DNA of 64,000 nucleotides from Hellea balneolensis DSM 19091 (GTDB lineage: Bacteria; Pseudomonadota; Alphaproteobacteria; Caulobacterales; Maricaulaceae). The stretch spans positions 992,001 through 1,056,000 of the forward strand of contig NZ_AUAC01000002.1 of the NCBI RefSeq assembly GCF_000428525.1, in the 5' to 3' direction. Each line of letters opens with the position of its first letter. Position 1 is the first letter of the stretch. The notes under the pieces are model-generated. The model was not told the origin of the DNA, ran no database searches, and was given only the letters and a program-made list of their open reading frames with translations. The translations under genes were made by a program, and so were the position numbers. Below are positions 8,889-30,878 of the stretch, in pieces.

Positions 8889-10139
8889 ATGGGTTATTCT
8901 GCATTTCGCATTTTAAAAGAGGCCATAACGGGTCATAAAGGCTGGAAACCTGTATGGCACAAAGCTGAGCCTTTGCCTGAATATGACATCGTTATTGTTG
9001 GCGGCGGTGGACACGGACTGGCCACTGCCCATTATCTCGCCTCAAAATTTGATCAAAAACGCATAGCCGTATTGGAAAAAGGGTGGATAGGCGGCGGAAA
9101 TGTTGGACGGAATACAACCATAATCCGCTCAAATTATATGCTCCATGAAAATGAAGCCTTTTACGAATTTTCACTAAAGCTCTGGGAAGGGCTTGAGCAA
9201 GACGTCAATTATAATGCAATGGTTAGTCAGCGCGGCGTTTTAAACCTCTATCATACAGACCCTCAGCGCGACGCCTACATACGGCGCGGTAATGCCATGC
9301 TTTTAAACGGCGCTGACGCTCAACTCCTTACGGCAGAAGGCGTGCGAAAAATGTACCCATTCCTTAATTTTGACGATGCCCGTTTTCCTATACGCGGAGG
9401 GCTTTTACAGCCGCGCGGCGGGACGGTCCGTCATGATGCTGTGGCTTGGGGTTATGCTCATGCCGCTGATAAAAGAGGCGTCGATATTATTGAAAATTGC
9501 GAAGTGACAGGATTTGATATCAAAGAAGGACGGTGCCACGGCGTCCAAACAACGCGCGGCCGCATCGGCGCAAAGAAAGTCGGCGTTGCTGTTGCTGGAA
9601 ATTCGGGGCGCGTCATGGCCATGGCGGGCATGCGCCTACCTATCGAAAGCCACGTCCTACAAGCCTTTGTCAGTGAAGGCCTGAAACCTTTGCTTGATGG
9701 TGTTATCACTTATGGCGCAGGTCACTTTTATGTCAGCCAATCCGATAAAGGCGGTCTTGTTTTTGGCGGGGATATTGACGGCTATAATTCCTATGCACAG
9801 CGCGGAAACTTACCCGTTGTCGAAGATGTCTGCGAAGGCGGCATGAGCGTAATGCCCATGATCGGAAAAGCCAGAATGCTTCGAATGTGGGGCGGTATTA
9901 TGGATATGTCTATGGACGGCTCACCCATTATAGATAAGACCCATATTGACGGTCTCTATTTTAATGGCGGCTGGTGTTATGGCGGCTTCAAAGCGACCCC
10001 GGCCAGCGGCTATAGTTTTGCTCATTTGCTTGCAACTGATAGTTATCACGAGACAGCAAAAGCTTATCGTCTGGATCGTTTTGCACGGGGTTATATGATC
10101 GATGAAAAGGGGCAGGGCGCTCAGCCTAATCTTCACTGA
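8889..10139 (+). CDS. soxB: Sarcosine oxidase beta subunit family, set 1
   Basis: The 416-residue flavoprotein belongs to the DAO/SoxB family. It has the FAD motif [15 protein letters not shown] near residue 36 and the conserved [16 protein letters not shown] segment. His182, in the motif GTVRHDAVAWGYA, aligns with the histidine that carries covalent FMN in heterotetrameric sarcosine oxidase. The SoxB family oxidises the N-methyl group of sarcosine to the imine, passing the carbon to THF bound on the alpha subunit. It is the first gene of a four-gene plus-strand operon (B-D-A-G). Its stop overlaps the soxD start by one base. It is a paralogue of the set 2 SoxB at 45851-47101, clearly related but not near-identical, so the two sets may differ in substrate. 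Confidence 0.9.
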   Translation: MGYSAFRILKEAITGHKGWKPVWHKAEPLPEYDIVIVGGGGHGLATAHYLASKFDQKRIAVLEKGWIGGGNVGRNTTIIRSNYMLHENEAFYEFSLKLWEGLEQDVNYNAMVSQRGVLNLYHTDPQRDAYIRRGNAMLLNGADAQLLTAEGVRKMYPFLNFDDARFPIRGGLLQPRGGTVRHDAVAWGYAHAADKRGVDIIENCEVTGFDIKEGRCHGVQTTRGRIGAKKVGVAVAGNSGRVMAMAGMRLPIESHVLQAFVSEGLKPLLDGVITYGAGHFYVSQSDKGGLVFGGDIDGYNSYAQRGNLPVVEDVCEGGMSVMPMIGKARMLRMWGGIMDMSMDGSPIIDKTHIDGLYFNGGWCYGGFKATPASGYSFAHLLATDSYHETAKAYRLDRFARGYMIDEKGQGAQPNLH

Positions 10140-10417
10140 TGATTATTCACCACCCTCTTCTTGGCCCTCGCGATGCCTCCGAATTTGTCTATTTGGGCGA
10201 TGCATCGCTTATGAACCGTCCCAACCCTAAATCGGAAACGGCGGCAGATGACTTTTACAGCTATCAATATTTAAGAGACAACCCGATGGGTGAACACAGA
10301 GAACTTTGGTATCACGAGCAAGGCGATAGATCTTGGTTAGTCGTCACACGCAACACGCTGACCCATGACATAACAAAAGTTGAATTAGCGCGTGATGTTG
10401 CGAGGGCTCAAAAATGA
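10139..10417 (+). CDS. soxD: Sarcosine oxidase delta subunit, set 1, lacking zinc cysteines
   Basis: The 92-residue protein is recognisable from its position between soxB and soxA and from segments such as ASEFVYLGDA, RDNPMGEHRELWYHE and NTLTHDI. Family delta subunits bind structural zinc through Cys6, Cys9, His59 and Cys63. Here the N-terminus reads MIIHHPLLGPRD with no cysteine, His59 is kept, and position 63 is aspartate. The zinc site is therefore almost certainly lost. The set 2 paralogue keeps all four ligands. The start overlaps the soxB stop by one base and the end overlaps the soxA start by four bases. Confidence 0.85.
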   Translation: MIIHHPLLGPRDASEFVYLGDASLMNRPNPKSETAADDFYSYQYLRDNPMGEHRELWYHEQGDRSWLVVTRNTLTHDITKVELARDVARAQK

Positions 10418-13242
10418 GCCTCATTGATACAACAAAGACTTTAAATTTCACCTTTAATGGCAAGGCCTATCAAGGGTTTGAAGGCGATACGCTGGCCTCA
10501 GCCCTGCTTAGGAATAAGGTTCGCATTGTAGGCCGGAGCTTTAAATATCATCGTCCACGCGGCATTATGGGCGCAGGCAGCGAAGAGCCAAATGCGCTTG
10601 TAGAAATTCATGGCGCGGGAACCTGCGAGCCTAATCGCCGCGCAACGACCATTAAATTATTTGAGGGACTAGACGCTAGAAGCCAAAATCATATGGGGAC
10701 TCTTAATTTTGATGCGCTTGCCATTAATGACTTTATGCATCCTTTTCTGGCGTCAGGATTTTACTACAAGACATTTATGTGGCCCAAAGCTTTTTGGGAA
10801 AAGCTCTATGAGCCTGTTATTCGCCGCGCAGCTGGACTTGGAACGCTCTCTAAAGCCGTTGACCCTGACAGTTATGATAAAGGGTTTTTACATTGCGATG
10901 TTCTAATCATTGGGGCCGGGCCCGCTGGCCTGCAATCAGCTTTAAATCTTGGTCTGGGAGGAAAGCATATTATTTTAGCGGATGATGATTTTCGCATGGG
11001 CGGACGATTACTCTCTGAAACTTATGAGATTGACGCCGCCCCTGCTCTGACATGGGTCGAGCAAACACTTAAAACTCTAGAGTCACTCCCCAATGTTCGC
11101 CTGATGCCTCGCACCGCCATTTATGGGGTTTATGATCACGGCATTTATGGTGGCCTTGAAACCACGACGGATAAGATAGGCATCGCGAAGCCCCGTCATA
11201 TACTTTGGCGCATCTATGCCAACTCATCCATATTAGCGGCGGGAGCGACTGAGCGTCCTATCGCCTTTGCGAATAATGACCGTCCTGGCGTCATGCTTGC
11301 GAGTGCTGTGCGGAGCTATAAAAACCGCTTCGGCATTGAATTGGAAAACACGGCTCTTCTGACGAATAATGATGACGGATTACGGACAGATGCCGCGCAT
11401 ATTTTCGACACGCGCAACGGCGACTATGTCATGGATGTTGGGGGCCGAAAGGGCGTGCGTTCCGTCACGCTCAACACAGGTGAAAATGTTGCTGCCAACC
11501 ATCTGGCTGTATCTGGTGGCTGGAATCCTAACGTGCATTTGACCTGCCATAAGCGAGGCCGCCCGAAATGGGATGAAGCCCTGAGCTGTTTCGTGCCAGA
11601 TACACATACGCTTCCATCTGACATGTCTGTTATCGGGGCAGCCAATGGAAAGTTCTCAACCCATGGCGCCTTTATGGACGCCAATGACATCTGTGAAAAG
11701 CTAGGGGTGAAAGCATCAGAACTTCCGCAAACGGAAGACGCGCCTGTCAAGATTTCTGCTTTTTGGCATGTCAAAGGTACAAAGCGGGCTTGGGTCGATT
11801 TCCAAAATGATGTGACAGCCAAAGATATTACCCTCGCGCACCAAGAAGGCTTTTCGTCTGTTGAGCATGTTAAACGCTACACCACATTAGGTATGGCAAC
11901 AGATCAAGGCAAAACCTCTAATGTTGTCGGCTTAGCCGTCTTGGCGGACGCCATCGGGCAGAGTATTCCTGAAACGGGGACCACGATTTTTCGGCCTCCC
12001 TATACACCTGTTCCAATAGGCGCTTTTGCAGGGACGCATCGCGGGCAACACTTCAAACCAACAAGGCTGACGCCCTCCCATAAATATGTCGCTGAAAATA
12101 GCGCAACTTTTATTGAGGCAGGTTATTGGAAACGTTCGCAATGGCTTGCCCGCGAAGGTGAAAAAGGGTGGCGCGACAGCGTTGATCGTGAAGTCCTCAT
12201 GACGCGCAACTCTGTTGGTATTTGTGACGTTACGACCCTCGGTAAGATTGATGTGCAGGGCCGTGATGCAGGAAAGTTTCTTAATAAGGTTTACGTCAAT
12301 ACATTCTCTACTCTTAAAGTCGGCAAATGTCGTTACGGATTGATGTTGCGCGAGGACGGAATAGCCATGGATGACGGCACAACAGCGCGGCTCTCAGAGA
12401 CGCATTTTGTAATGACGACAACCACGGCCAAAGCGGGCCCCGTCTTCAGGCATCTAGAATATGTGCGGCAATGCCTTTATCCCGATATGGATGTTCATCT
12501 AATTTCGACGACAGATCAATGGGCGCAATACTCCGTGGCCGGTCCAAATTCGCGCAAACTTCTAGAAAAAATCGTTGATCCAAAATTTGATATTTCGAAT
12601 GAAGCTTTCCCTTATATGGCTTGCGGTGAAATTACGATTTGCGGCGGCATACGAGCGCGTCTCTTCCGTCTTTCTTTCTCAGGGGAACTCGCTTATGAAA
12701 TCTCCGTTCCTGCCCGTTACGGCGACACGCTTATCCGCGAAATGATGCATCAAGGCGAAGCATTTGACGCCGTTCTCTACGGCACAGAAGCACTCGGTGT
12801 TATGCGAATTGAGAAAGGTCATGCCGCCGGTAATGAATTAAACGGAACAACGACAGCCAATGCCCTAGGGCTTGGCGGCTTCGTCTCTAAAAAGAAAGAC
12901 TGCATCGGAAAAGTATTATCACAGCGTGAAGGACTGGTTTCTGAAGAGGCATTGCAAATGGTCGGCTTTATTCCAGTGAACCCGAAAGACAAATTAACAA
13001 ATGGGGCTCACTTTATTCCCAAGGGAACAGCCCCCTCCCCTGAAACGGATCATGGCTATATGAGTTCAGTCGCATGGTCCCCCATGTTAAAGACTTATAT
13101 TGGATTAGGTTTTCTCAAAAATGGACAAAATCGTCTTGGGGAAGTTATTCAAGCCAGCCATCTTATGGGAAATAGTCATGTTGATGTAACAGTTGTAAGC
13201 CCGCATTTCTTTGATCCAAAGGGAGAGCGTCTGCGTGCCTAA
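10414..13242 (+). CDS. soxA: Sarcosine oxidase alpha subunit family, set 1
   Basis: The 942-residue subunit starts with a ferredoxin-like region (about 10-100, RSFKYHRPRGIMGAG). An NAD(P)-binding disulfide-reductase-like domain follows (VLIIGAGPAGLQSA near 165, then AAGATERPIAF). The C-terminal aminomethyltransferase (GcvT-like) domain, from about residue 560, binds THF; its conserved segments include RNSVGICDVTTLGKIDVQG and GPNSRKLLEKI. In the complex it carries NAD and passes the oxidised methyl carbon to THF as 5,10-methylene-THF. The start overlaps soxD by four bases and the 3' end overlaps the probable soxG start. The domain order and length are normal for the family. Confidence 0.9.
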   Translation: MSLIDTTKTLNFTFNGKAYQGFEGDTLASALLRNKVRIVGRSFKYHRPRGIMGAGSEEPNALVEIHGAGTCEPNRRATTIKLFEGLDARSQNHMGTLNFDALAINDFMHPFLASGFYYKTFMWPKAFWEKLYEPVIRRAAGLGTLSKAVDPDSYDKGFLHCDVLIIGAGPAGLQSALNLGLGGKHIILADDDFRMGGRLLSETYEIDAAPALTWVEQTLKTLESLPNVRLMPRTAIYGVYDHGIYGGLETTTDKIGIAKPRHILWRIYANSSILAAGATERPIAFANNDRPGVMLASAVRSYKNRFGIELENTALLTNNDDGLRTDAAHIFDTRNGDYVMDVGGRKGVRSVTLNTGENVAANHLAVSGGWNPNVHLTCHKRGRPKWDEALSCFVPDTHTLPSDMSVIGAANGKFSTHGAFMDANDICEKLGVKASELPQTEDAPVKISAFWHVKGTKRAWVDFQNDVTAKDITLAHQEGFSSVEHVKRYTTLGMATDQGKTSNVVGLAVLADAIGQSIPETGTTIFRPPYTPVPIGAFAGTHRGQHFKPTRLTPSHKYVAENSATFIEAGYWKRSQWLAREGEKGWRDSVDREVLMTRNSVGICDVTTLGKIDVQGRDAGKFLNKVYVNTFSTLKVGKCRYGLMLREDGIAMDDGTTARLSETHFVMTTTTAKAGPVFRHLEYVRQCLYPDMDVHLISTTDQWAQYSVAGPNSRKLLEKIVDPKFDISNEAFPYMACGEITICGGIRARLFRLSFSGELAYEISVPARYGDTLIREMMHQGEAFDAVLYGTEALGVMRIEKGHAAGNELNGTTTANALGLGGFVSKKKDCIGKVLSQREGLVSEEALQMVGFIPVNPKDKLTNGAHFIPKGTAPSPETDHGYMSSVAWSPMLKTYIGLGFLKNGQNRLGEVIQASHLMGNSHVDVTVVSPHFFDPKGERLRA

Positions 13243-13804
13243 ATTATCACCCACTCTGCCCCTTGAGAGTTTCTCAAAACACTGGCCTGGCTTGACGATA
13301 GAAGAGCATTATATTGGGGAACTTATCTCTTTGGCTATTGCCCGTGAAGAAGAGAGCGCTTTTAAAACCGCCTTTAAAAAGACATTTGGCAAGGCCCCGC
13401 CTGAGCCTTCACAGCTCATGGCCGTTAAAGGCGGCTATGCGATCTGGTCTTCCCTCGAACAGTATTTAATCTTGCTTGAGGGCGAGAATATAAATGCTGA
13501 TAAAGATATCGCCAAGAAGATGGGCCCATCTGCTTATACAACGCTGCAAAGCGATGGTTGGGCCTCAATTGACATAAAGGCAAAGACCTCCAAAAGCACA
13601 GCTCTATATGATGTGCTTGAGCGCTTTATTCCGCTTAATTTACGGCAAGCTCCAGAGGGCTTTACAAGCCGTACATCAGCGCATCATATCGCTGTCATTG
13701 TCATAAAATATAGCGAGACTGAAATTCAGCTTTTGACCCCGCGAAGCTCGGCAGGGTCATTCTTAGAATCTCTCATTCACACCGCAGAAAACGTGCTTAG
13801 CTAA
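13235..13804 (+). CDS. soxG: Sarcosine oxidase gamma subunit, set 1
   Basis: The protein is about 189 residues and is identified mainly by position after soxA and weak SoxG features (DGWASIDIKAKTSK, RTSAHHIAVIVIKY). SoxG proteins diverge quickly and help assemble the tetramer. The start chosen is the GTG at 13235, eight bases after GGGAGAG and inside the soxA stop region; an ATG at 13211 would give eight more residues but lacks a good ribosome site. The 3' end overlaps the convergent mttB-like gene by eight bases. It is noticeably different from the set 2 gamma subunit. Confidence 0.72.
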   Translation: MPKLSPTLPLESFSKHWPGLTIEEHYIGELISLAIAREEESAFKTAFKKTFGKAPPEPSQLMAVKGGYAIWSSLEQYLILLEGENINADKDIAKKMGPSAYTTLQSDGWASIDIKAKTSKSTALYDVLERFIPLNLRQAPEGFTSRTSAHHIAVIVIKYSETEIQLLTPRSSAGSFLESLIHTAENVLS

Positions 13805-15332
13805 TATTACTATCAGGGAAGCTGGCCTTACGCTCTTCCATGTATTTTAAAAGACGCGCATCAATATCAGGGTCAAGCTCCGGCGCGACATATTCATTCA
13901 ACATGGTTTTATAAACTTTCTCAGCGCGATCCTCAGCTGACAGACTGCCGTCTTCGACCCATTGCTCAAAGCTACTATTGTCTGACACATTGGACTGATA
14001 AAACGCTGTTTTGAAATTCTTTTGGGTATGTTCACAGCCTAGGAAATGCTGTCCCGGTCCGACTTCGGCAATCGCGTCCATGGCTTGACCATTAGCTGAC
14101 ATATCTACGCCTTTCGCAAATTTCGCCATCATACCAGCTTGGTCAGCATCCATGATAAATTTCTCATAGCCCATAGCCAGACCGCCCTCAAGCCAACCCG
14201 CCGTATGTAGCATAAAGTTCACGCCTGCCATTAGGCCTGTTTGTAAGGAATTCGCGGCCTCATAACCAGCTTGAGCGTCAGGGATCTTGGACGCATTAAA
14301 CCCGCCCGCAGACCGGAAAGGCACGCCCAAACGCCGGGCCAAGGCAGCGCTCATATTGATAATCAGCGACGCTTCTGGTGTCCCGAATGTCGGCGCGCCT
14401 GTTTGCATTGACATAGACGTCACAAAGTTTCCGTAGATCACGGGCGCTCCAGGACGAACCAGTTGCGTCAGCGCCATACCCGCTAAGCCTTCGGCCAAAC
14501 TTTGCGCCGCAACACCTGCGGCTGTGACTGGCGACATCGCGCCTGAAACCACAAAAGGGCTTGGCATGGCGCATTGCCCTGATCGTGCGTAGTTCTTCAG
14601 CGCGCCTAACATAACGCGGTCCCATGTCATGGGTGAATTCGCGTTGATGAGGTTGACCAAAACGCAATTCTCTTCAACGAAATCGTCACCAAAAACAATC
14701 TTGGCCATATCAATTGTATCGATCGCGCGCTCAGGCTGGGTCACAGACCCCATAAAAGCTTTGTCTGAATATTTGATATGACTGTAATTCATATCAAAAT
14801 GACGCTTGTTCACGGGCAAATCTACGGGCTCACACACCGTCCCGCCGCTGTGATGCAGATTAGGCGACATATAGGCGAGTTTCACAAAATTGCGGAAATC
14901 TTCAATATTGGCGTAACGCCGCCCGCCCTCTTTTGAATAGACAAAAGGCGGCCCGTAAGCCGGAACAAGAACTGTATTATTACCTCCAATTTGAACATTA
15001 TTAGCGGGGTTACGCGCAAATTGGGTAAACTCTTTCGGAGCCGTCGCTTGAATAATTTCGCGGCACATACCCCTTGGAAAGCGCACGCGGTCACCATCCG
15101 CTTTTGCGCCCGCTTTGACAAAGTAATCAATAGACTCGGGGTCTTCTTGGATTTCAAGTCCGACCTCTTCGAGGAGCGTATCCGCATTATGCTCAAGCTG
15201 TGCAAGATCTGTATCGTTGAGGACAGAATAAGTTGGAATATTGCGTTTAATATAAGGGTCGCGAGGCGGAGCCTCAGCCCCTCTCGCAGCGGCACGGCCG
15301 GCACGGCCTCCTGATCTAGCGCGTCTAGCCAT
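13797..15332 (-). CDS. mttB: MttB-family (non-pyrrolysine) betaine:corrinoid methyltransferase
   Basis: The 511-residue protein belongs to the trimethylamine methyltransferase superfamily (COG5598). It has the characteristic barrel segments NNTVLVPAYGPPFVYS, SGGTVCEPVDLP and SMSMQTGAPTFGTPEASL, and the C-terminal GPGQHFLGCEHT. There is no in-frame amber codon where methanogen MttB carries pyrrolysine, so it belongs with the MtgB/MtpB/MtcB type, which demethylate glycine betaine, proline betaine or carnitine onto a corrinoid protein. The N-terminus is an Arg/Ala/Gly-rich tail (first 24 residues). It is the last gene of an operon that also encodes the corrinoid carrier and methylcorrinoid:THF methyltransferase. 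Glycine betaine is the likeliest substrate given the neighbours, but this is inference. Confidence 0.87.
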   Translation of the reverse strand: MARRARSGGRAGRAAARGAEAPPRDPYIKRNIPTYSVLNDTDLAQLEHNADTLLEEVGLEIQEDPESIDYFVKAGAKADGDRVRFPRGMCREIIQATAPKEFTQFARNPANNVQIGGNNTVLVPAYGPPFVYSKEGGRRYANIEDFRNFVKLAYMSPNLHHSGGTVCEPVDLPVNKRHFDMNYSHIKYSDKAFMGSVTQPERAIDTIDMAKIVFGDDFVEENCVLVNLINANSPMTWDRVMLGALKNYARSGQCAMPSPFVVSGAMSPVTAAGVAAQSLAEGLAGMALTQLVRPGAPVIYGNFVTSMSMQTGAPTFGTPEASLIINMSAALARRLGVPFRSAGGFNASKIPDAQAGYEAANSLQTGLMAGVNFMLHTAGWLEGGLAMGYEKFIMDADQAGMMAKFAKGVDMSANGQAMDAIAEVGPGQHFLGCEHTQKNFKTAFYQSNVSDNSSFEQWVEDGSLSAEDRAEKVYKTMLNEYVAPELDPDIDARLLKYMEERKASFPDSNIS

Positions 15333-15371
15333 ATCTTTTCTCCCTATAAGCGCGTGTCTTTTCTGCGCTAA

Positions 15372-15887
15372 TTATAATGTTTCCCCGCGCGTGCCTTGGG
15401 GCGGAAACCCCTCAAATTGCGGCAAGCCGTCAGTGATTTCGTAATAAGGCCCCTTATCTTTTACAAAGATATGACCTTTAACGGACAGGCCCTCAGTATC
15501 ATCTAGGTTTCCTGCCAATACACTTACAGTATCGCGGGCCGCTTCATCCCAAAACATATAACTGCCGCATGAGCCGCAATGCCCAGATTTGGAGGCCTCG
15601 GAAATAGGGAGCCAATTCACATCGCCACTGATGGTCAGATGATCCCGCTTCACTCCAGCAGCCGCGATATAGAGGCCCGTCAGATGTTGGCATTGCTTAC
15701 AATGACAATACCAAATATCCGACAGTCCCTCAGCGCTAAAAGAAACCGCGCCGCAAAGGCATTTACCCGTATATGTCTTAACCGCGGCGACGACGGCCTC
15801 CTCTACCGCGGCGAGCGCCTTCGCCTGTCCCTTCTGCAGGAGCAGGACGATAATTTTTAATCCAGTTCGCGCAGCTCGGGTCAACAC
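15372..15887 (-). CDS. GFA/CENP-V domain zinc protein, start uncertain
   Basis: This is a GFA-domain protein (glutathione-dependent formaldehyde-activating enzyme-like fold). The cysteine pattern is complete: CLCGAVSF, CHCKQCQHLTG and GHCGSCGSYMFWDEA. The domain begins at the segment TYTGKCLCG, where homologues normally start. In this sequence the codon there is GTT, not a start, and it overlaps the TAA of the upstream methyltransferase gene. The frame continues upstream through an Ala-rich stretch to a GTG at 15887, giving 171 residues and a 110-base overlap with the upstream gene; CTG codons near 15843-15850 are alternatives. A link to formaldehyde is suggested by the family name and operon context only. 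Confidence 0.72.
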   Translation of the reverse strand: MLTRAARTGLKIIVLLLQKGQAKALAAVEEAVVAAVKTYTGKCLCGAVSFSAEGLSDIWYCHCKQCQHLTGLYIAAAGVKRDHLTISGDVNWLPISEASKSGHCGSCGSYMFWDEAARDTVSVLAGNLDDTEGLSVKGHIFVKDKGPYYEITDGLPQFEGFPPQGTRGETL

Positions 15888-16683
15888 CGTTTAAAACGTC
15901 TGCGGCTCTGACAGCTGGCACTAAGCCCTCATGAAGAGGATTAACAATAGCTGATGTCATGCCTGTTGCAGCCAGCATGGGTAAAAATGCATTATTAATT
16001 GCATGGCGTTCTGGCAAACCAAAGGCGACATTAGATGCACCACAGGTCGTATTTACGCCCAATTCGGACCGTAAACGCCCAACCAATTTAAACACATCTG
16101 TGCCTGCACTATTTACTGCGCCAATTGGCATTACCAAAGGATCAACCACCACGTCTTCGGGTTTAATGCCGAAATCCGCCGCGCGGTTGACGATGCGTTT
16201 GGCCACTTCGAAGCGAACATCAGGATCTTCTGAAATCCCTGTATCATCATTTGAAATGGCGACGACGGCGCAATCGTATTTTGCGACAAGCGGCAAAATA
16301 CGTTCCATCACTTCTTCTTCCGCAGTAGTTGAGTTTAGCAGCGGGCGTCCTTTGTAAACTTTGAGGCCTGCTTCCAAAGCATCCATCACGGAGCTATCAA
16401 TACACAGAGGTACATCCGTTAAGCTTTGAATCAAAGGAATAACTTCTGACATGATAAGTGGTTCATCAGCCAAAGGCACACCTACATTGACGTCCAGAAT
16501 TTGAGCGCCGGCTTCGACTTGAGCGAGCGCCTCTTTCTTCACGCGCCAATAGTTAAACTCTTTAAGTTCTTTGGAAAACAGCTTTCGTCCCGTCGGGTTT
16601 ATGCGCTCTCCAATCATCGTGAAAGGTTGATCAAAACCGATCACATGTTCTTTGGTCGCTGACGCTAATATCGTTCGTGCCAT
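15778..16683 (-). CDS. Pterin-binding methylcorrinoid:tetrahydrofolate methyltransferase (MtgA/AcsE-like)
   Basis: The 301-residue protein is a DHPS-like TIM barrel of the MetH-pterin/AcsE/MtgA family. Diagnostic segments are MIGERINPTGRK, ILDVNVGVPLADE, PLCIDSS (near 95), PLLNSTTAEEE, VVDPLVMPIG and TTCGASNVAFGLPER. These bind folate and hold the methyl acceptor. In the operon it would move the methyl group from the corrinoid protein to THF. The last 20 residues form an Arg/Gly-rich tail (ARRGRGGRRRRG) outside the barrel, mirrored by the basic N-terminus of the MttB-like protein. The 3' end overlaps the GFA reading frame. Dihydropteroate synthase itself is unlikely because of the N5-methyl-pterin family motifs and the neighbours. 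Confidence 0.86.
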   Translation of the reverse strand: MARTILASATKEHVIGFDQPFTMIGERINPTGRKLFSKELKEFNYWRVKKEALAQVEAGAQILDVNVGVPLADEPLIMSEVIPLIQSLTDVPLCIDSSVMDALEAGLKVYKGRPLLNSTTAEEEVMERILPLVAKYDCAVVAISNDDTGISEDPDVRFEVAKRIVNRAADFGIKPEDVVVDPLVMPIGAVNSAGTDVFKLVGRLRSELGVNTTCGASNVAFGLPERHAINNAFLPMLAATGMTSAIVNPLHEGLVPAVRAADVLNGVDPSCANWIKNYRPAPAEGTGEGARRGRGGRRRRG

Positions 16684-16692
16684 TTTATAATC

Positions 16693-17709
16693 CTAATTAA
16701 TCTCTGCTGTTTCCGGTGCCCATGGCACGCGTCCATCTAAAACGCCTGAACGTTTTACAACATCTTTGACCCATTTTTCTTGGCGGTAAGCCATGACGTG
16801 AACACCGCTTACGCCAGATGTCTCTTTGAGCTGCTGCATGATTTCGACGCAGATGTTGCGTCCTTCCCGCAAAGGCTTATCTGCGCCTTCGAGGCGTTTA
16901 ATGATCGCATCGGGAATATGGACGCCCGGTACATTTGCGCGCATCCATTTTGCGGTTCTGGCTGAAGGTAAAACACCCACGCCAATAAGAATATAGGCTT
17001 TCTCAGTTAGCCCCATATCGACGGCTTTCTTCATAAACTCCTTAAGGATATCCATATCAAAACAATATTGTGATTGAATATATTCTGCTCCTGCCTCAAT
17101 CTTTTTAGCGAGTTGATCGACTCTGTTCGGGATAGGCGGCACAAAAGGATTAATAGACGAGCCGATAAATAATTTAGGCGCGAGATCAAGTTTACGTCCA
17201 CTTAGAAAACGCGACTCATCACGTAACACTCTTAAGGTTCGCGTCAGCGACACACTATCAAAATCAAAAACGGGTTTCGCCTCAGGATGATCGCCAGCAC
17301 CAACATCATCACCTGAAAGGCATAAAGCATTACAAACTCCCAATGCCGCAGCGCCCAATGTATCACCTTGAATCGCAATTCTATTTCTGTCGCGACAGGA
17401 TATTTGTAATATTGGAGAATACCCCGCACGCGTAAGAATAGCGCAAACAGCAAGACTGGACATATGACAATGCGCGCCCGATCCATCCGTCGCATTAATG
17501 GCGTCAACATACCCATCAAACAAAGAGGCCCGCGTGAGGACTTCATCAGGGTCAGCTGAATCAGGCGGAGCAATCTCTGTTGTGACAGCAAAATGCCCTG
17601 CTCTTAAAACGCGCTCAAAGCGGCCATGCGACACATGCCCCGGAAGCTGCGGAAGCGGATCGCCAGGATTAGTTCCAAGCGTTTCAACATTTGGAATTTC
17701 TTCTATCAT
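16693..17709 (-). CDS. metF: Methylenetetrahydrofolate reductase (MetF)
   Basis: The 338-residue protein has the MTHFR TIM-barrel pattern: FAVTTEIAPPDSADPDEVL at the N-terminus, a conserved NATDGSGAHCHMSSLA segment, ALCLSGDDVG, and the QSQYCFDMDILKEFM and ILIGVGVLPSARTAKWM strands. It interconverts 5,10-methylene-THF and 5-methyl-THF using FAD. The start overlaps the MetV-like stop by four bases (ATGA), so the two are coupled, as in the MetVF complex of acetogens. Because the operon produces methyl-THF from methylated substrates, this enzyme probably runs in the oxidative direction. A separate biosynthetic MetF may exist outside the window. Confidence 0.87.
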   Translation of the reverse strand: MIEEIPNVETLGTNPGDPLPQLPGHVSHGRFERVLRAGHFAVTTEIAPPDSADPDEVLTRASLFDGYVDAINATDGSGAHCHMSSLAVCAILTRAGYSPILQISCRDRNRIAIQGDTLGAAALGVCNALCLSGDDVGAGDHPEAKPVFDFDSVSLTRTLRVLRDESRFLSGRKLDLAPKLFIGSSINPFVPPIPNRVDQLAKKIEAGAEYIQSQYCFDMDILKEFMKKAVDMGLTEKAYILIGVGVLPSARTAKWMRANVPGVHIPDAIIKRLEGADKPLREGRNICVEIMQQLKETSGVSGVHVMAYRQEKWVKDVVKRSGVLDGRVPWAPETAEIN

Positions 17710-18164
17710 TTGGTGTCCTCAGCGAGTTCTTCACGCGCTAATTTAAGCCAAGTGGATGTTCCTTTTTCACGGTGATCAACTGCAAAATCGATGGATTTGA
17801 TAGCATCTCCGTCTTTCATTCGCGAGGCACCATCCCAAGCCGCGACCCAAACACAGCGCATCTCAGGTTTGACTTCGCACATACCATTAGGGCGAACACC
17901 TCCACAGGGTCCATTACGAATAGTTTTGGGGCAATTCATCGGACAGCTCATGCCTGTTTTGGATAAAGCGCAATTTCCGCACATCTGGCAATCGAACAGA
18001 AAACCTTTCAGTCCCGCTTCTGCCGCCGTGATGGGTTTATCTAACTTTTTGCCAAAGACTTTTGTGACGCCCTTTAACACGGCAATAATAGCTGGGTTCA
18101 CAGTATTATAGAGCCCTTCCATAAAGCGTGAACGACGCACAGACCAAAGACGCACCTTATACAT
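17706..18164 (-). CDS. metV: MetV-like iron-sulfur partner of methylenetetrahydrofolate reductase
   Basis: The 152-residue protein matches the MTHFR C-terminal/MetV family. It holds eight cysteines (59, 62, 65, 74, 78, 87, 96, 104) in the pattern FDCQMCGNCALSKTGMSCPM, CPKTIRNGPCGG and MCEVKPEMRC, enough for two [4Fe-4S] clusters. MetV proteins carry electrons to or from MetF in Moorella-type reductases. It overlaps DUF1638 upstream by eight bases and metF downstream by four. It indicates that MetF here uses a non-pyridine-nucleotide or membrane-linked electron partner, which would suit methyl-THF oxidation. The electron acceptor is not encoded nearby. Confidence 0.85.
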   Translation of the reverse strand: MYKVRLWSVRRSRFMEGLYNTVNPAIIAVLKGVTKVFGKKLDKPITAAEAGLKGFLFDCQMCGNCALSKTGMSCPMNCPKTIRNGPCGGVRPNGMCEVKPEMRCVWVAAWDGASRMKDGDAIKSIDFAVDHREKGTSTWLKLAREELAEDTK

Positions 18165-18792
18165 GGCTCATGCTTTCTTGATTTTTGACCTCTAAGCCAA
18201 ATGATGTGATAGCCGCCTCAAGCTCACCATAACCTGTGAAATGATAGTTATAAGACAGGCCTAATTTATGGGCAGCCTCTTGGGCTTGAACTTGCAAGTC
18301 CTCATCCTCGGTCTGCGCCAAATAAGTCAATTTCTTATAATGCTCGAAATAAGTGTCAATCAGATTAGGGTATCTGTCTATGCCCATGCCCTTGATAATC
18401 AAAGTCTCGAAATGACGCACCAAATAATCGGTCAAGAAAAATGTCCCTAACTCTGCTTCCATCATATGATCGAAATTATTTAGTCCGGAGTAGAATGCAT
18501 AGCAATGCGCGCCCGGTAGACGCGTCGCATTTGGATAGCTTTTAAGTAACCTATCCAAACCGCCGCCTGTACCGCAATCACCATAGCCAATCAGAATAGT
18601 GTTGTACCGCGCTGCGCATTCGTCCAAAATTGCTTTAAGACCAGGAACGATCTTTTCAGGATGATTGTGATAACCTGCCGGCAAACATTTTAGCTCTGCT
18701 TCTTGGCTCACTTGCCCTAACAAATGAACAAGCTCCTTGGCCAATGCACCGCAAGCCAGAATAAGTGTCTTATGTTGGGAGCCGGATCTCAC
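18157..18792 (-). CDS. DUF1638 protein in corrinoid methyltransferase operon
   Basis: The protein is 211 residues, starting at a GTG six bases after the corrinoid-protein stop. It resembles DUF1638 proteins, recognisable by LILACGALAKEL near the N-terminus, the LIGYGDCGTGGGLD segment, and GAHCYAFYSG with a conserved Cys/His pair. Cysteines lie at roughly residues 14, 36, 59, 73 and 97. The family has no established reaction, but it is repeatedly found beside MttB-type methyltransferases. With no RamA or RACo-type reactivase in this window, a role in corrinoid handling (cofactor loading or reductive rescue) is a reasonable guess and nothing more. Confidence 0.72.
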   Translation of the reverse strand: MRSGSQHKTLILACGALAKELVHLLGQVSQEAELKCLPAGYHNHPEKIVPGLKAILDECAARYNTILIGYGDCGTGGGLDRLLKSYPNATRLPGAHCYAFYSGLNNFDHMMEAELGTFFLTDYLVRHFETLIIKGMGIDRYPNLIDTYFEHYKKLTYLAQTEDEDLQVQAQEAAHKLGLSYNYHFTGYGELEAAITSFGLEVKNQESMSHV

Positions 18793-18798
18793 AACGGA

Positions 18799-19488
18799 CT
18801 ATCTGTTCTTACCCATAATGGCTTTGGCGAGTTCAGAACTCATCGCCGCATCGCGGCCATAAGTGTGGGCATTAATGGCATCTGCAAATTCTTGATTAAG
18901 CGGCGCGCCGCCCACCATAACAGGTAACTCTTTGAGAATACCACGTTTATCCAGCTCTTCAATAACAACGCCCATGTAAGGCATAGTTGTTGTTAGAAGC
19001 GCTGACATGCCTAGGATATTTGGCTCATGTTCATCTATAGCGGCAAGATATTCTTCGACTGGCGTATTAATACCCAAATCAATGACCTCGAAACCGGCGC
19101 CTTCAAGCATCATCCCGACAAGGTTTTTGCCGATATCGTGAATATCACCTTTAACCGTCCCGATAACGTATTTCCCAACGCTAGAGTTATTTTCACTGGC
19201 CGCAAGGATAGGACGCAGCAGGTTCATCCCGCCCTTCATCGCATTGGCGCTTTGTAGAACCTCCGGCACAAAAAGAATACCGTCTCTAAAGTCAACGCCG
19301 ACAATACGCATCCCCTCAACCAAAGCATCATTGAGAACCATATTCGCATCCCAACCGCGGTCGAGCAGGATTTGCGTGCCCTCTGTGACCTCTGGAATCA
19401 TCCCATCATAGAGATCATCCATCATTTGAGCCACGAGCTCAGTGTCGTCCAAATCCTTTAGGATAATCTCTTCATCTTGATCGCTCAT
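18799..19488 (-). CDS. mtbC: Corrinoid (cobalamin-binding) methyl carrier protein
   Basis: The 229-residue protein is of the MtbC/MttC/MtgC type. An N-terminal four-helix cap domain (about 10-95) precedes a Rossmann-like cobalamin-binding domain. The base-off B12 motif D115-x-H117-x-x-G120 is intact (GDIHDIGKNLV), followed by ILGMSALLTTTM and VMVGGAPLN, which wrap the nucleotide tail. His117 is the predicted lower cobalt ligand. It would shuttle the methyl group between the MttB-like and pterin-binding methyltransferases. The start at 19488 has a strong ribosome site (AAAGGAGA, 19491-19504 region). It is the second gene of the operon after fhs. The symbol is by family resemblance; the substrate class is not encoded in the carrier. 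Confidence 0.9.
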   Translation of the reverse strand: MSDQDEEIILKDLDDTELVAQMMDDLYDGMIPEVTEGTQILLDRGWDANMVLNDALVEGMRIVGVDFRDGILFVPEVLQSANAMKGGMNLLRPILAASENNSSVGKYVIGTVKGDIHDIGKNLVGMMLEGAGFEVIDLGINTPVEEYLAAIDEHEPNILGMSALLTTTMPYMGVVIEELDKRGILKELPVMVGGAPLNQEFADAINAHTYGRDAAMSSELAKAIMGKNR

Positions 19489-19513
19489 AAATAATCTCCT
19501 TTACCGAATCTCA

Positions 19514-21214
19514 TCATGCAAGGCCGACGATTTGTCCGTCTTCATCAAGACCAATATCCAATGCAGCGGGATGGCGCGGCAGACCAGGCATGCGCATAAT
19601 CGTTCCACAAATAGCCACGACGAAACCCGCACCTGCGTTTAGTGTGGCCTCACGAACTTCGACGGTATGGCCTGATGTTGCCCCTAGTTTTTTAGGGTCT
19701 GTCGAAAAACTGGATTGTGTCTTGGCAATACAAATCGGTAAGTGACCGAATCCCATTTTTTCAACCTGGCGGAATGTTGTTTTGGCTGCAGCGCTAATCA
19801 CAACACTTTCAGCGCGGTAGATTTCCTTTGCGACTTTTTCGACTTTAACTGCAAGCTTGTCAGTATCATCATACATCAGAGTGACAGATGGCTTGGGTTT
19901 TTCAAGCTCTGCCTGAACGGCTTTTGCAAGATCTTCAGCCCCCGCGCCGCCTTCGGCCCAATGACGCGCTATCACCATGGGAACATTTTCTTGATCGCAA
20001 ATTTCTTTGACTACGGCGATTTCCTCATCTGTATCATGGATAAAGTGATTGATTGATACCACAGGCGTCAGACCAAATTTCTTCAGGTTTTGGATATGAC
20101 GCTCGACATTGACGCAACCCTCACGGACAGCTTCAATGTTTTGTGGCCCTAACTCATTTTTCGGAACCCCGCCTTGCATCTTCATAGCTCGAATTGTGCA
20201 AACGAGAACAACGGCATCAGGACGAAGACCTGATTGACGGCATTTAATATCGAGAAATTTCTCTGCGCCCAAATCAGCGCCAAATCCTGCTTCTGTGACA
20301 ACAACATCTGTCATCTTAAGCGCAGTTTGTGTCGCCACAACTGAGTTACAGCCATGAGCGATATTGGCGAAAGGCCCGCCATGTATAAAGGCCATATTAT
20401 GCTCAATCGATTGCACAAGATTTGGCTGAAACGCATCTTTGAGCAGAACAGTAACAGCGCCATCAGCGCCAATATCTCGCACCGTCACGGGTTTTTTCTT
20501 TGACGTCTTCGCCACAATGATGTCGCCAATGCGCTTTTGAAGATCTTTCAGATCCGTCGCCAGACAGAAAATCGCCATAATCTCTGACGCGACTGTAATG
20601 TCAAACCCGCCTTCGCGAACAATACCCTGAGTTGGACCGCCAAGCCCCATCACGATATGGCGAAGCGCGCGGTCATTCATATCAACGACGCGGCGCCACG
20701 TGATACGGCGCGGGTCAATATCTAGCTCATTGCCCCACTGCATGTGATTATCCAGCATCGCTGAAATCAGAGAATGCGCAGACGTAATGGCGTGAAAATC
20801 CCCGTTGAAATGAAGATTAATATCTTCCATTGGTAGAACCTGAGCACGTCCGCCTCCCGCAGCCCCACCCTTCATACCAAAGCAAGGACCCAAAGAAGGC
20901 TCTCTAAGGCAGACCATAGACTTAACGCCGATACGGTTAAGTCCGTCATTCAGGCCAACAGAGGTTGTCGTTTTACCCTCGCCAGCTGGTGTTGGCGTTA
21001 CTGCTGTTACAAGCACTAATTTCCCGTTTGGCTTATCTTTTAGGCTGTCAATATAATCTAAAGATAGCTTTGCTTTGTAATGGCCATAAGGCACGAGGGC
21101 TTCAGCGGGAATGCCAAGCTTTTCTTCCGCCAAAGGCAAGAGACTCTTCATTTTAGCGGCGCGCGCAATATCAATATCTGCTGCACCAGGTGCCGGGAGG
21201 TTCTGTTGTGTCAT
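19514..21214 (-). CDS. fhs: Formate-tetrahydrofolate ligase
   Basis: The 566-residue protein has the signature ATP loop [17 protein letters not shown] near residue 72 and conserved blocks [20 protein letters not shown]-like, [18 protein letters not shown] and [20 protein letters not shown]. The length is normal for Fhs. It joins formate and THF with ATP, or in reverse makes formate and ATP from 10-formyl-THF. As first gene of the methyl-transfer operon and with formate dehydrogenase at 25946-30808, the reverse, ATP-yielding direction is likely here. The gene is divergent from dddP across 203 bases. FolD, needed between MetF and Fhs, is not in the window. Confidence 0.95.
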
Positions 21215-21417: not shown

Positions 21418-22794
21418 ATGGCCAATTGCTGTATCTGCTTTGCTATGAGATTTTCGCAAACGCCTTTGACAAGACCGCCATCAGAGTTACGCCGTAAAAT
21501 CGGACCTCAATTTCAAGCGGATATAGAAGCCCGCCGCGCTTCATTTGATAGCCCCGAAATAGGCCCGACCTTGCGAGCGATGACAGAACTAGCGGAACTA
21601 GGGTTATCTCTGCCTGATCTTGCGAAAATGCGTCACTATCGCAGAGGCCGCATCATGGCAGAACTTCGAAAACACCGCCTTGGAGGGATGTTATTATTTG
21701 ACCCTATCAATATTCGCTACGCCACAGATTCGATGAATATGCAAGTCTGGACCCTGCATAATCTCGCCCGCGCCGCCTTCATTAGCTCAGAGGGTTATAT
21801 TGTGCTGTGGGATTTTGTGCATTGCGAGCATATGACCAAGCACCTGCCTTTAATAAACGAAGTACGCAGTGGGGCCGGAGCCTTCTATTTTGAACATGGC
21901 GCAGAAGAAGCTTCTCAAGGCTCAAAGTTCGCGCAAGAAATAAAAGATGTGATGGCGCAACATGGCTGTGAAGGCCGCATCGCTATTGATCGTATGGATA
22001 TAGCTATCTCCCAAAGCTTTCAGGATAAAAATATCTACTATGTTCCGGGACAACCCATCATGGAACAGGCGCGCCTAATCAAAGGCCCCGATGAGATAAA
22101 AGCCATGAAATGCGCGGCTGCAGCCTGCGAACTTGCCGTTAAGAAGATGCATGAAGCTTTAGAGCCGGGACTTGCTGAAGTTGAGCTTTGGGCGGTGCTT
22201 CACCATGAAAATATTGCGCGCGGCGGAGAATGGATAGAAACGCGCATTCTTTCTTCCGGCCCCCGAACAAATCCTTGGATGCAGGAAGCTGGCCCTCGGA
22301 TCATAAAAGACGGAGAGCTCTTGGCTTTTGATACTGACTTGATCGGGCTTTACGGAATGTGCTGTGACATGTCGCGCACCTGGTTGGTAGGCGATGGCAA
22401 CGGAACAGCCGAGCAGAAAGATTGTTACCAAATAGCCTATGATCACATCAACGAAAATACAACCCTACTAAAACCGGGCATTTCATTTAATGAACTCACA
22501 TTTAAAGGTCATGTTTTACCTGAAGCGTTTCAAGATCAAAAATATTGTGTGAAAATGCATGGTGTCGGATTATGCGATGAGTATCCCAGTATTTATTATG
22601 AAGACCACTTCATAGAAGGAGCATTTGAAGGTGAATTACAGCCTGGTATGACATTATGCGTTGAGGCTTATATAGGTAAAGTCGGCGGCATTGACGGCGT
22701 GAAACTTGAAAATCAAATCCTGATAACCGAGGATGGATATGAAAACCTAACGCCCTATCCCTATGAAGAACGGCTGTTGTATCATGCTCACTAA
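21418..22794 (+). CDS. dddP: DMSP lyase DddP (M24 metallopeptidase-fold)
   Basis: The 458-residue M24-fold protein closely follows DddP. The metal ligands and catalytic residues reported for Roseobacter denitrificans DddP (D295, D297, D307, H371, E406, E421, catalytic D377 and Y366) all fall here at a constant offset of ten: D305, D307, D317, H381, E416, E431, D387 and Y376. Other hallmarks are LLFDPINIRYATDSMNMQVW, GGEWIETRILSSGPRTNPW and MHGVGLCDE. DddP cleaves dimethylsulfoniopropionate to DMS and acrylate in the cytoplasm. An ATG at 21445 is an alternative start giving 449 residues. It is followed by a GlxA-type regulator in the same direction and is divergent from fhs. Confidence 0.9.
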   Translation: MANCCICFAMRFSQTPLTRPPSELRRKIGPQFQADIEARRASFDSPEIGPTLRAMTELAELGLSLPDLAKMRHYRRGRIMAELRKHRLGGMLLFDPINIRYATDSMNMQVWTLHNLARAAFISSEGYIVLWDFVHCEHMTKHLPLINEVRSGAGAFYFEHGAEEASQGSKFAQEIKDVMAQHGCEGRIAIDRMDIAISQSFQDKNIYYVPGQPIMEQARLIKGPDEIKAMKCAAAACELAVKKMHEALEPGLAEVELWAVLHHENIARGGEWIETRILSSGPRTNPWMQEAGPRIIKDGELLAFDTDLIGLYGMCCDMSRTWLVGDGNGTAEQKDCYQIAYDHINENTTLLKPGISFNELTFKGHVLPEAFQDQKYCVKMHGVGLCDEYPSIYYEDHFIEGAFEGELQPGMTLCVEAYIGKVGGIDGVKLENQILITEDGYENLTPYPYEERLLYHAH

Positions 22795-22836: not shown

Positions 22837-23796
22837 ATGTTTGGCCAAGGACCACATAATCGAAGCCAGAAAATCGGTTTCATTCTGATACCTGATTTTT
22901 CAATGATGGCCTTTACGGCCTGTATTGAACCTTTGCGCACTGCCAATCGCCTCAGCCGAAAACCTCTTTATGACTGGCAAGCCCTGAGCCTTGACGGGCA
23001 GCCCGTGAAAGCCAGCAATCAGGTGACAATAACACCCGATAATGCATCTTCTGATATCACGGATTGTGATGTGATATTTATCTGTGCAGGCTTGCGCCCC
23101 CGCCGTTTTTTAACGCCTCAATTAAGTGCAGAAATAAGACGGTTTAATCGAAAAGGCATGCCGATTGGGTCTGTGTGCACAGGCTCAGAAGCCTTAGCTT
23201 ATGCGGGCGTTTTGACAGGACATCGCTGCACCATACATTGGGAGAATATTGAAACTTTCAAAGAGCTTTACCCGGCACTTGAGATCACAGCGACCTTGTT
23301 CGAAATTGATCGCAAACGTTACACATGTTCGGGCGGGACGGCCCCAATTGACATGATGATACACTCTATAAGGCTTGATCATGGTGATGCTCTGGCGCAA
23401 AACGTGGCTGAGCAACTCCTGCATAATTTTGTGCGAGAACCTCATCATAATCAGCGCATGGCAATTGATCACCGCACTGGACTCAATCACCCCAAACTCC
23501 TCGCAGCTATTGGCTATATGGAAGCTTATATAGAAGAGCCACTATCTTTAGTCAGGCTAGCTCAGAAAGTAGAGCTATCATTGCGGCAGTTAGAGCGCTT
23601 GTTTAAAGCGCAGCTCAATACCTCCCCGGGAAAATATTACCTCAATTTACGGCTTGAGCGGGCGCGGCATTTTCTGCGCCAAACTGGCATGTCAGTCATG
23701 GAAATCGGACTTGCAAGCGGATTTAACTCAGCCTCAAATTTCTCACGCTGTTATAAAGCACAATTCGGTCACTCACCGCACCAAGAGCGCTTATAA
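22837..23796 (+). CDS. GlxA-type transcriptional regulator (DJ-1/PfpI domain plus AraC HTH), GbdR/CdhR-like
   Basis: The 319-residue protein has an N-terminal class I glutamine-amidotransferase-like (DJ-1/PfpI) domain, residues about 10-185, with the nucleophile-elbow motif GSVCTGSEALAYAG. An AraC-type helix-turn-helix pair follows at about 220-315 (LAQKVELSLRQLERLFKAQ and MEIGLASGFNSASNFSRCYKAQFGHSP). This is the architecture of GbdR, SouR and CdhR, which sense glycine betaine/dimethylglycine, sarcosine or carnitine. Lying amid betaine and DMSP genes, it probably controls some of them. Which ligand it binds cannot be read from sequence. It ends in a six-base convergent overlap with the MFS gene. 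Confidence 0.87.
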   Translation: MFGQGPHNRSQKIGFILIPDFSMMAFTACIEPLRTANRLSRKPLYDWQALSLDGQPVKASNQVTITPDNASSDITDCDVIFICAGLRPRRFLTPQLSAEIRRFNRKGMPIGSVCTGSEALAYAGVLTGHRCTIHWENIETFKELYPALEITATLFEIDRKRYTCSGGTAPIDMMIHSIRLDHGDALAQNVAEQLLHNFVREPHHNQRMAIDHRTGLNHPKLLAAIGYMEAYIEEPLSLVRLAQKVELSLRQLERLFKAQLNTSPGKYYLNLRLERARHFLRQTGMSVMEIGLASGFNSASNFSRCYKAQFGHSPHQERL

Positions 23797-25153: not shown

Positions 25154-25945
25154 TTATCCGCTTATTTTAACGCCTTGATTTTCAAAGCGCGCATAAAGGG
25201 CCATATTTGCCTCTGTCGCCTTACGCGTTGCAAAAGCTGTCGGGCCAGACATAGAGAGTATCGCCTGAACGCCGCGCCGGGCGGCTTTCTCCACGATTTC
25301 ATAAGAACAGCGGCTCGACATCAAGACAAAACCTTCTGTTACATTGGTGTTCTTTTGGGCCATCGCCCCTAAAAGCTTATCAAGCGCATTATGCCTACCG
25401 ACATCTTCGCGGCTGAGTTCAATATCGCCTTGCTGCGTCACCCAAGCCGCCGCATGGACACTATGTGTTTGAGCGTTGAGAGGTTGTAGCTGCCTTAGGG
25501 ATGTCATCGCTTTGGCCATGGCCTCTTTCGATAAATCTATCGGGGTTTGCGCGATCTTTGGCAAAACCTTGAAAAGTGTATCGGCATTCTCAAGCCCGCA
25601 TAATCCGCAGCTGGCCGAGCCAACTAAGTTACGGCGACGCTGCGTGATATCAAGTCTTTCAAGCGCGTGCTTTTTGATCTTAAATCTTAGATCAGCCCCC
25701 TTTTCAGATATGTAAATATCAAGGGAAAGGACGTCATTAGGTGTTTTAATAACCTCTTCGGTTAAGGCGAAGCCTAGACCAAAATCTGTTAAGTCATGAG
25801 GCGTTCCCATCATCACAGCGTAGTTCCGCCGATTAAAGACCAAGGCTATCGGGACTTCTTCGGGTATGAACCAGTCTTGGTCCCCTGCCTTTACGGAATG
25901 CGAGACTGCAAGATGTTCCCCGTGAACTTTTACGGGGAAAACCAT
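25154..25945 (-). CDS. fdhD: Formate dehydrogenase accessory sulfurtransferase FdhD
   Basis: The 263-residue FdhD family protein has the conserved C-x-x-C motif in GSASCGLCGLE near residue 113, EVPIALVFNRRNYAVMMGTP near the N-terminus, and SREDVGRHNALDKLLG and SSRCSYEIVEKAARRG in the C-terminal half. FdhD moves sulfur from the cysteine desulfurase to the molybdenum cofactor, which formate dehydrogenase needs for activity. It begins directly after the stop of the alpha subunit gene, fitting the fdsGBA-C order. No small FdsD-type subunit gene is visible after it. Confidence 0.93.
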   Translation of the reverse strand: MVFPVKVHGEHLAVSHSVKAGDQDWFIPEEVPIALVFNRRNYAVMMGTPHDLTDFGLGFALTEEVIKTPNDVLSLDIYISEKGADLRFKIKKHALERLDITQRRRNLVGSASCGLCGLENADTLFKVLPKIAQTPIDLSKEAMAKAMTSLRQLQPLNAQTHSVHAAAWVTQQGDIELSREDVGRHNALDKLLGAMAQKNTNVTEGFVLMSSRCSYEIVEKAARRGVQAILSMSGPTAFATRKATEANMALYARFENQGVKISG

Positions 25946-28783: not shown

Positions 28784-28787
28784 TATC

Positions 28788-30808: not shown

Positions 30809-30878
30809 AATGCGTCCTATTGCTGATAGTTCTAACAAAACAAGAGGCGCAATGCATCATTAGAGTTAGAAATATTAG

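Follow-up and report, generated by a model that had tools for sequence, protein, structure and literature searches.

A corrinoid methyltransferase operon in Hellea balneolensis DSM 19091, a probable betaine-demethylating methyl hub

The operon and the genome around it

The window analysed here is a stretch of 64,000 nucleotides from Hellea balneolensis DSM 19091 (contig NZ_AUAC01000002.1, positions 992,001 to 1,056,000). At positions 13797-21214 its minus strand carries an operon of eight open reading frames (ORFs) for a corrinoid-dependent methyltransferase system. None of the eight is interrupted and all match their own Pfam family above the curated cut-offs (Table 1). The spacing between them ranges from -8 (overlap) to 39 bases, with GFA as the exception. 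The listed GTG start of GFA is located 110 bases inside mtgD, and the true start probably lies within the 110 bases downstream of it. An earlier note on this DNA, made from the sequence alone, had described eight tightly linked genes, and the intact frames, Pfam matches and close packing confirm this.

Table 1. Features of the window, with coordinates and the family matches on which each assignment rests
Feature	Position	Strand	Basis
fhs, formate-tetrahydrofolate ligase, 566 aa	19514..21214	-	PF01268 (FTHFS) 860 bits; NCBIfam PRK13505 882 bits, cut-off 652
mtgC, corrinoid carrier, 229 aa, acidic N-terminus	18799..19488	-	PF02310 90 bits; PF02607 (B12-binding_2) 51 bits
DUF1638 protein, 211 aa	18157..18792	-	PF07796 98 bits
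metV, short eight-cysteine MetF partner, 152 aa	17706..18164	-	PF12225 (DUF5981) 90 bits
metF2, divergent methylene-tetrahydrofolate reductase, 338 aa	16693..17709	-	PF02219 (MTHFR) 104 bits
mtgD, methyl-tetrahydrofolate:corrinoid methyltransferase, 301 aa, Arg/Gly-rich C-terminal tail	15778..16683	-	PF00809 (Pterin_bind) 104 bits; NCBIfam PRK07535 350 bits, cut-off 259
GFA-family protein	15372..15887	-	PF04828 67 bits, residues 38-144
mttB-like / mtgB, betaine:corrinoid methyltransferase (predicted), 511 aa, Arg-rich N-terminus	13797..15332	-	PF06253 (MTTB) 726 bits
First sarcosine oxidase (Sox) operon (SoxB, SoxD, SoxA and an ORF in SoxG position), convergent with mttB	8889..13804	+	DAO, SoxD, GCV_T, SO_alpha_A3
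DddP-like M24 protein	21418..22794	+	NCBIfam DddP 535.5 bits, equivalog cut-off 600 not reached
GbdR-like AraC regulator	22837..23796	+	best NCBIfam model GbdR 354.8 bits, cut-off 480 not reached
FdhD, FdsA, FdsB, FdsG: formate dehydrogenase with NuoF-like NAD module	25154..30838	-	Pfam
dmdA, dimethylsulfoniopropionate demethylase	34773..35879	+	NCBIfam PRK12486 609 bits, cut-off 410
Second Sox operon and DMGDH-like protein	42013..49549	-	SoxG, SoxA, SoxD, SoxB domains; FAD-GcvT fusion

The corrinoid motif of mtgC reads D-I-H-D-I-G, which is the intact D-x-H-x-x-G noted before, and the eight cysteines of MetV, likewise noted, are invariant across 46 aligned sequences. MetF adjoins this DUF5981 protein, as in MetVF-type methylene-tetrahydrofolate (methylene-THF) reductases. 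Separate proteins for the first methyltransferase (PF06253), the corrinoid carrier (PF02310) and the second methyltransferase (PF00809) constitute the gene set of an MtgBCD betaine demethylase. The MttB frame has no in-frame stop and therefore no pyrrolysine codon; together with the strong MTTB match this agrees with the earlier description as an MttB-type methyltransferase without pyrrolysine. A pyrrolysine trimethylamine methyltransferase was rejected, as TIGR02369 gave 255 bits against a cut-off of 525 and no in-frame stop or TAG was found.

Among solved structures, MttB matched PDB entry 4yyc (E=2.7e-203, residues 3-508), followed by 2qne (E=4.3e-130) and 9yce (E=1.6e-129) over about 470 residues each. 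The sequence of MetV matched no solved structure at E<=0.1, and a fold search with its model (pLDDT 80) gave no PDB match at E<=10. The model of the DUF1638 protein (pLDDT 90) had no PDB match at E<=0.001, and Rfam at gathering scores gave no match within the window.

The genome (3.2 Mb, 10 contigs, 99.81% complete) was judged for gene content by family search. It holds one COX1 oxidase gene, and the host is probably an oxygen-respiring bacterium. There is a single MTTB gene and a single RamA-like protein (PF14574). Directly upstream of the latter lies a second MtgC (L065:5017-7720, on contig C2 of the window genome, G000), identical to the operon MtgC at 180 of 233 aligned positions; these two copies are the only B12-binding_2 proteins of the genome, and they possibly split betaine and methionine duty.

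No match to PF01717 (MetE and core synthases) was found in the genome, and no frame of MetH length was seen among its PF02574 and PF02607 matches, the absence of MetH being judged from frame lengths. Instead there are two short homocysteine methyltransferases, one of which exceeds the NCBIfam Bmt cut-off (458 vs 338 bits) and is called MtgE here. Besides the operon MtgD, the genome has only one other Pterin_bind (PF00809) protein, which is FolP-like. Two MetF proteins are present, one scoring 299 bits with PF02219 and the operon copy 104, as well as two FolD and one PurU above its cut-off. Separate homocysteine, corrinoid and pterin proteins, with neither MetH nor MetE found, are the composition of a split methionine synthase. 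Likewise MtgE, RamA (by its Pfam RACo domains) and DUF1638 without a MetH found are the composition of an MtgBCD genome in the sense of Mausz 2025 (PMC12478193). Because no MetE and no protein of MetH length was found and MtgD is the only Pterin_bind protein that is not FolP-like, methionine synthesis probably needs the operon MtgD, by analogy with Ruegeria pomeroyi. For the same reasons a purely catabolic role, as the earlier note had it, was not upheld, and the catabolic and the biosynthetic role probably do not exclude one another.

Occurrence in other genomes

Two samples were used. The class sample consisted of 289 genomes, the window genome included: MetV (PF12225) was found in 24, MTTB in 62 and both in 22 (Fisher p ~1e-14, shared ancestry ignored). 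Additionally, named genomes were scanned with the MetV alignment. This gave at least 581 confirmed relatives; the 80 best of them, each with a proteobacterial title, were used further. MetV is thus common in proteobacteria, and the earlier view of it as the least described part was not supported.

The gene content of the 80 loci was determined by phmmer with the window proteins, and many loci are incomplete. MetF was found in 78, DUF1638 in 66, MtgD in 64, MtgC in 60, RamA in 55, MttB in 30, GFA in 22 and Fhs in 12. The full set of eight window genes is found in 11 of the 80, so that the search for the eight-gene neighbourhood proposed in the earlier note shows the set recurring in Alpha- and Gammaproteobacteria. 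The alphaproteobacterial loci are from Maritalea (L097, L099), Hellea (L109), Robiginitomaculum (L091) and a Hyphomonadaceae metagenome-assembled genome (MAG; L089). The gammaproteobacterial loci are L101, L102, L105, L107, L113 and L119, where only L107 is titled Candidatus Thioglobus and the others Gammaproteobacteria.

Both Maritalea loci have the identical eight genes in identical order on one strand. RamA is located between GFA and MttB in nine of the 11 full-set loci, though not in Maritalea or the window. Eight of the 11 hold FdsA-, FdsB- or FdhD-like genes, the exceptions within the fetched stretch being L089, L097 and L099. The Hellea locus shows FdsA, FdhD, GbdR, DddP and Fhs in the order and orientations of the window, except for one MFS gene. 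Downstream of MttB, the six loci from Gammaproteobacteria carry Fhs together with FdhD/FdsB-like genes, which match FdhD (69-76 bits) and FdsB (200-267 bits) more weakly. Among the matches listed, the window MetV was most identical to those of the Hyphomonadaceae MAG (83%) and a Novosphingobium MAG (80%), followed by Robiginitomaculum, Caulobacterales and Hellea MAGs (76-77%). The MttB proteins of the Hyphomonadaceae, Robiginitomaculum and Hellea loci are 83-90% identical to that of the window.

In 97 MetV-centred loci we also looked for other recurring genes. A FolD cluster and a PurU-like cluster were each found in 10 loci, with one representative of each checked in Pfam. No recurrent electron-acceptor gene was recognised near MetV in these loci, where most clusters are unannotated and some are probably shadow ORFs. 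A small PF13769 ('Virulence factor') protein, assigned from one representative checked in Pfam (L067:10924-11229), occurs in 27 of the 97 loci, mostly near DUF1638 and MetV (e.g. L106:9681-9992); in the window DUF1638 and MetV overlap, which leaves no room between them for such a protein. Two Halomonas loci (L110, L130) carry MetV with DmdA, PurU-like and FolD genes; within the fetched stretch phmmer detected no MetF there. A longer MetV, a 229-aa frame which may resemble the acetogen form, stands beside MetF in L005, from a class genome without an MTTB match (G125).

A probable betaine-demethylating methyl hub

Five residues of Desulfitobacterium hafniense MtgB (PDB 2qne) have been proposed by docking for betaine: Y94, N199, R309, H345 and F353 (Creighbaum 2019, PMC6855144). 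Four of them are kept in the homologous window MttB as Y126, N230, R340 and H376. Among 65 aligned proteobacterial MttB rows, which include the window MttB and a fragment from its own genome, Tyr126 is found in 63 and Asn230 in all 65, while Arg340, His376, Trp380 and Gly384 are found in 64 each with one gap each. The kept residues, proposed to bind the carboxylate, favour a betaine as the substrate. The GbdR-like, DMGDH-like and Sox neighbours speak for glycine betaine, a major marine osmolyte (PMC12478193). The earlier note did not list the GbdR-like, DddP-like and dmdA genes with this operon. The GbdR-like and DddP-like genes adjoin fhs, and the formate dehydrogenase genes lie about 4 kb from it, which agrees with the NAD-linked Fds reported nearby. 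FdsA scores 892 bits with TIGR01591 (cut-off 666), and FdsB stays under the NuoF cut-offs. The window also encodes a Rieske oxygenase, a 2-oxoglutarate (2OG)-oxygenase-like protein, a CoA ligase and a hydroxyacyl-CoA dehydrogenase; with the two Sox sets and the DMGDH-like protein, the O2-dependent neighbours of the earlier note are all there.

Judged from gene content and homology, the operon is likely to be a betaine-demethylating methyl hub, which also feeds methionine synthesis. MttB would demethylate glycine betaine, or a carboxylate betaine close to it, with the cob(I)alamin of MtgC as acceptor, and MtgD would pass the methyl group on to THF. MetF with its partner MetV would oxidise methyl-THF to methylene-THF and FolD would continue to formyl-THF. 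Formate would be released by reverse Fhs or by PurU and then be oxidised by the linked Fds. The DMGDH-like and Sox enzymes encoded nearby would degrade the dimethylglycine and sarcosine, and RamA would re-reduce MtgC. In the reverse direction MtgD and an MtgC would charge MtgE for methionine. DmdA, likely a second source of methyl-THF for MetF/MetV, would supply the same pool. The substrate, the direction of MetF/MetV and of Fhs, the electron acceptor and the use of the second MtgC are what we infer here.

Much of this has a precedent. In the aerobic R. pomeroyi, genetics has shown that betaine demethylation, and with it growth on betaine, depends on MtgC and MtgD, and mutants of either gene are methionine auxotrophs (Mausz 2025, PMC12478193). 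The same paper names MetF2, RamA and DUF1638, and reports mtgC in groups including SAR116, SAR324 and SUP05, genes for C1 oxidation and cobalamin reactivation that are often colocated, even in operons, and no MetH in 108 of 156 (~70%) MtgBCD genomes. The system of R. pomeroyi DSS-3, MtgBCD(E), has the Pfam06253 methyltransferase, corrinoid protein, pterin methyltransferase, MetF2, DUF1638 and RamA in common with that of the window, which probably also belongs to an aerobe and probably has the same dual role including methionine synthesis. The mtg genes are scattered in R. pomeroyi, whereas they form one operon in the window, and the window genome has two MtgC copies. The split methionine synthase of Phaeobacter inhibens likewise has separate homocysteine methyltransferase, corrinoid and pterin proteins with a RamA-like protein and DUF1638. 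There the DUF1638 relative is needed for the synthase, the RamA-like protein has a phenotype too, and the text concerning DUF1638 proposes no specific function for it (Price 2018, PMC5764234). In the window the corrinoid, pterin and DUF1638 genes share one operon with MttB, MetF/MetV and Fhs.

Acetogen MetVF also consists of MetF and a DUF5981 partner with eight conserved cysteines; it was ferredoxin-linked in vitro, with the use of NADH reported as lost (PMC9430772). The acetogen partner is about 24 kDa, whereas the window MetV has 152 aa and its presumed direction is oxidative; neither Hdr nor RnfC2 was seen among the annotated genes of the window. The main text of PMC12478193 contains none of the words MetV, Fhs or formate, and no discussion of MetV in such operons was found there or among the open-access literature matches listed. 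The operon is real, intact, conserved, of a kind published recently (2025) and mostly expected. Three features were not found in the literature consulted: a single-operon layout that includes MetV and Fhs with Fds linked to it, a second MtgC next to RamA, and the distribution of arginine-rich ends described below.

Several observations weigh against a glycine betaine hub as drawn above. The fifth docked residue, Phe353 of MtgB, is replaced by Gly384 with a conserved Trp380 nearby, and therefore the substrate of the window MttB is not proven. MttB is found in only 30 of the 80 best MetV loci within the fetched stretch, and in 18 of the 32 loci that span 20 kb or more. The three genomes of the same taxonomic order in the class sample have neither MetV nor MTTB. 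The best NCBIfam model for the operon MtgC is MtgC (NF047996), which at 194.7 bits stays under its cut-off of 370, and the DddP-like and GbdR-like proteins also miss theirs. RamA has all RACo Pfam domains yet stays under the NCBIfam AcsV and RamA cut-offs, and it is encoded on a different contig, so the operon is not 'complete' as had been claimed. PurU offers an ATP-free way to formate.

This last point leads to the alternative that survives best. PurU may release the formate, with Fhs running forward to assimilate formate made elsewhere and no gain of ATP, which we hold to be possible but somewhat doubtful. The genome has PurU above the cut-off and the PurU-like cluster recurs near MetV; the operon holds Fhs and not PurU, however, Fhs is found in 12 of the 80 loci and Fds/FdhD-like genes in eight of the 11 full-set loci. 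Of the aerobic betaine-methyl oxidation proposed earlier, the MttB/MtgC/MtgD route in a probable aerobe, oxidation towards formate and the linked Fds stand, given the recurring layout and the R. pomeroyi genetics. For ATP from reverse Fhs together with NADH no support was gained, in view of PurU and of the acetogen MetVF reported without NADH use (PMC9430772).

It is unlikely that the substrate of MttB is a different quaternary compound, such as carnitine, butyrobetaine or proline betaine, and that glycine betaine is handled otherwise. Gly384 would fit such a substrate, as would the 2OG oxygenase, related to TmpA/butyrobetaine dioxygenase, the CoA ligase and the hydroxyacyl-CoA dehydrogenase. 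MtgE moreover belongs to the Bmt family, of which a P. inhibens member uses betaine and DMSP (dimethylsulfoniopropionate) in vitro (PMC12366255). The GbdR-like, DMGDH-like and Sox genes nevertheless fit a route from betaine to glycine, the MTTB gene is the only one in the genome, and R. pomeroyi provides the betaine precedent. Very improbable is a mainly biosynthetic operon, acting as the methionine synthase and folate supply of the genome with MttB as a minor methyl donor: the lack of a MetE match and of a MetH-length frame, MtgD as the only Pterin_bind protein that is not FolP-like, the presence of MtgE and the R. pomeroyi auxotrophies speak for it, but MtgE lies outside the operon, catabolism is indicated by MttB, Fhs and MetF/MetV as well as by the GbdR-like, Sox and DMGDH-like genes around them, and the second, higher-scoring MetF and the second MtgC beside RamA could serve biosynthesis.

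If the operon is a methyl hub, its compactness and the closeness of a regulator and a formate dehydrogenase would allow the entire route from methyl group to CO2 to be tested in the cultured Maritalea myrionectae DSM 19524 (L097), and MetV is thereby placed in probable aerobic methyl-THF oxidation.

Some further genes of the window are noted here. The Rieske protein was rejected as a GbcA-type betaine monooxygenase, since the GbcA model gave 104.6 bits against 670; GbcA was sought in the window and not genome-wide. The 197-aa ORF in SoxG position in the first Sox operon has no Pfam match. DmdA, above its cut-off, and the DddP-like protein, below it, share one gene island. A 2OG oxygenase at 1077-2780, with TmpA as its best NCBIfam model (318 bits, cut-off 400 not reached), adjoins an HD-domain protein without an NCBIfam match. 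TmpA and the HD oxygenase TmpB convert trimethylaminoethylphosphonate to glycine betaine, and glycine betaine from a conversion of this type would feed the operon.

Arginine-rich ends and a proposed docking model

An arginine-rich end was defined as at least five arginines within the last 20 residues or, for MttB, within the 30 residues before the fold; the threshold was set after seeing the sequences. Ends were counted in the named loci for ORFs above 150 bits (GFA at any score) with the stop inside the locus, and as the rows are related the counts are not independent. The C-terminus is arginine-rich in 57 of 60 MtgD and 46 of 50 RamA proteins, compared with 4/75 for MetF, 1/80 for MetV, 0/64 for DUF1638, 0/12 for Fhs, 0/22 for GFA, 3/60 for MtgC and 1/29 for MttB as controls. 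The N-terminus of MttB is arginine-rich in all 65 rows, against 19 of 1032 internal windows, and in the window MttB it lies ahead of the fold aligned with D. hafniense MtgB. In 77 MtgC sequences, own-genome copies included, the net charge of the first 29 positions averages -11 and varies between 0 and -17. Outside the counted MtgE set, arginine-rich ends are also present in the MtgE of the window genome and in one MtgE of genome G079 (two overlapping loci). In the window genome neither the FolP-like protein nor the second homocysteine methyltransferase has such a tail.

Shine-Dalgarno overlap was not supported as the cause of the tails, since about 90% (MtgD) and 83% (RamA) of the tail arginine codons are CGN. 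Among the PDB matches, MtgB chains begin and AcsE-type chains end near the aligned fold, which suggests that they have no tag, though crystal constructs may be trimmed. No description of the arginine-rich ends was found among the open-access literature matches listed, and the words 'arginine' and 'tail' are absent from the main text of PMC12478193.

From these charges we tentatively propose that charge tags, not covalent linkers, join the parts of the split B12 methyltransferase in these proteobacteria, a model that may well be wrong. Probably flexible arginine-rich tags of MttB (N-terminal), MtgD, RamA and perhaps MtgE (C-terminal), the proteins expected to contact MtgC, would dock on the acidic N-terminus of a shared MtgC. 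Three observations count against it. In MtgE the tail is seen in 3 of 6 only, which is weak. The remaining ~200 residues of MtgC are acidic as well (mean net -11). Finally, among the 87 own-genome ORFs with 120 aa or more in the stretches examined, six have five or more arginines in the last 20 residues; these include MtgD, MtgE and RamA, and the other three are non-partners, among them a FolB-like gene beside MtgE. If the model holds, any methyltransferase gaining a tag can join the hub. Many MttB paralogues, methionine synthesis and reactivation could then share a single carrier, which points to a way for a split B12 methyltransferase to hold several partners together.

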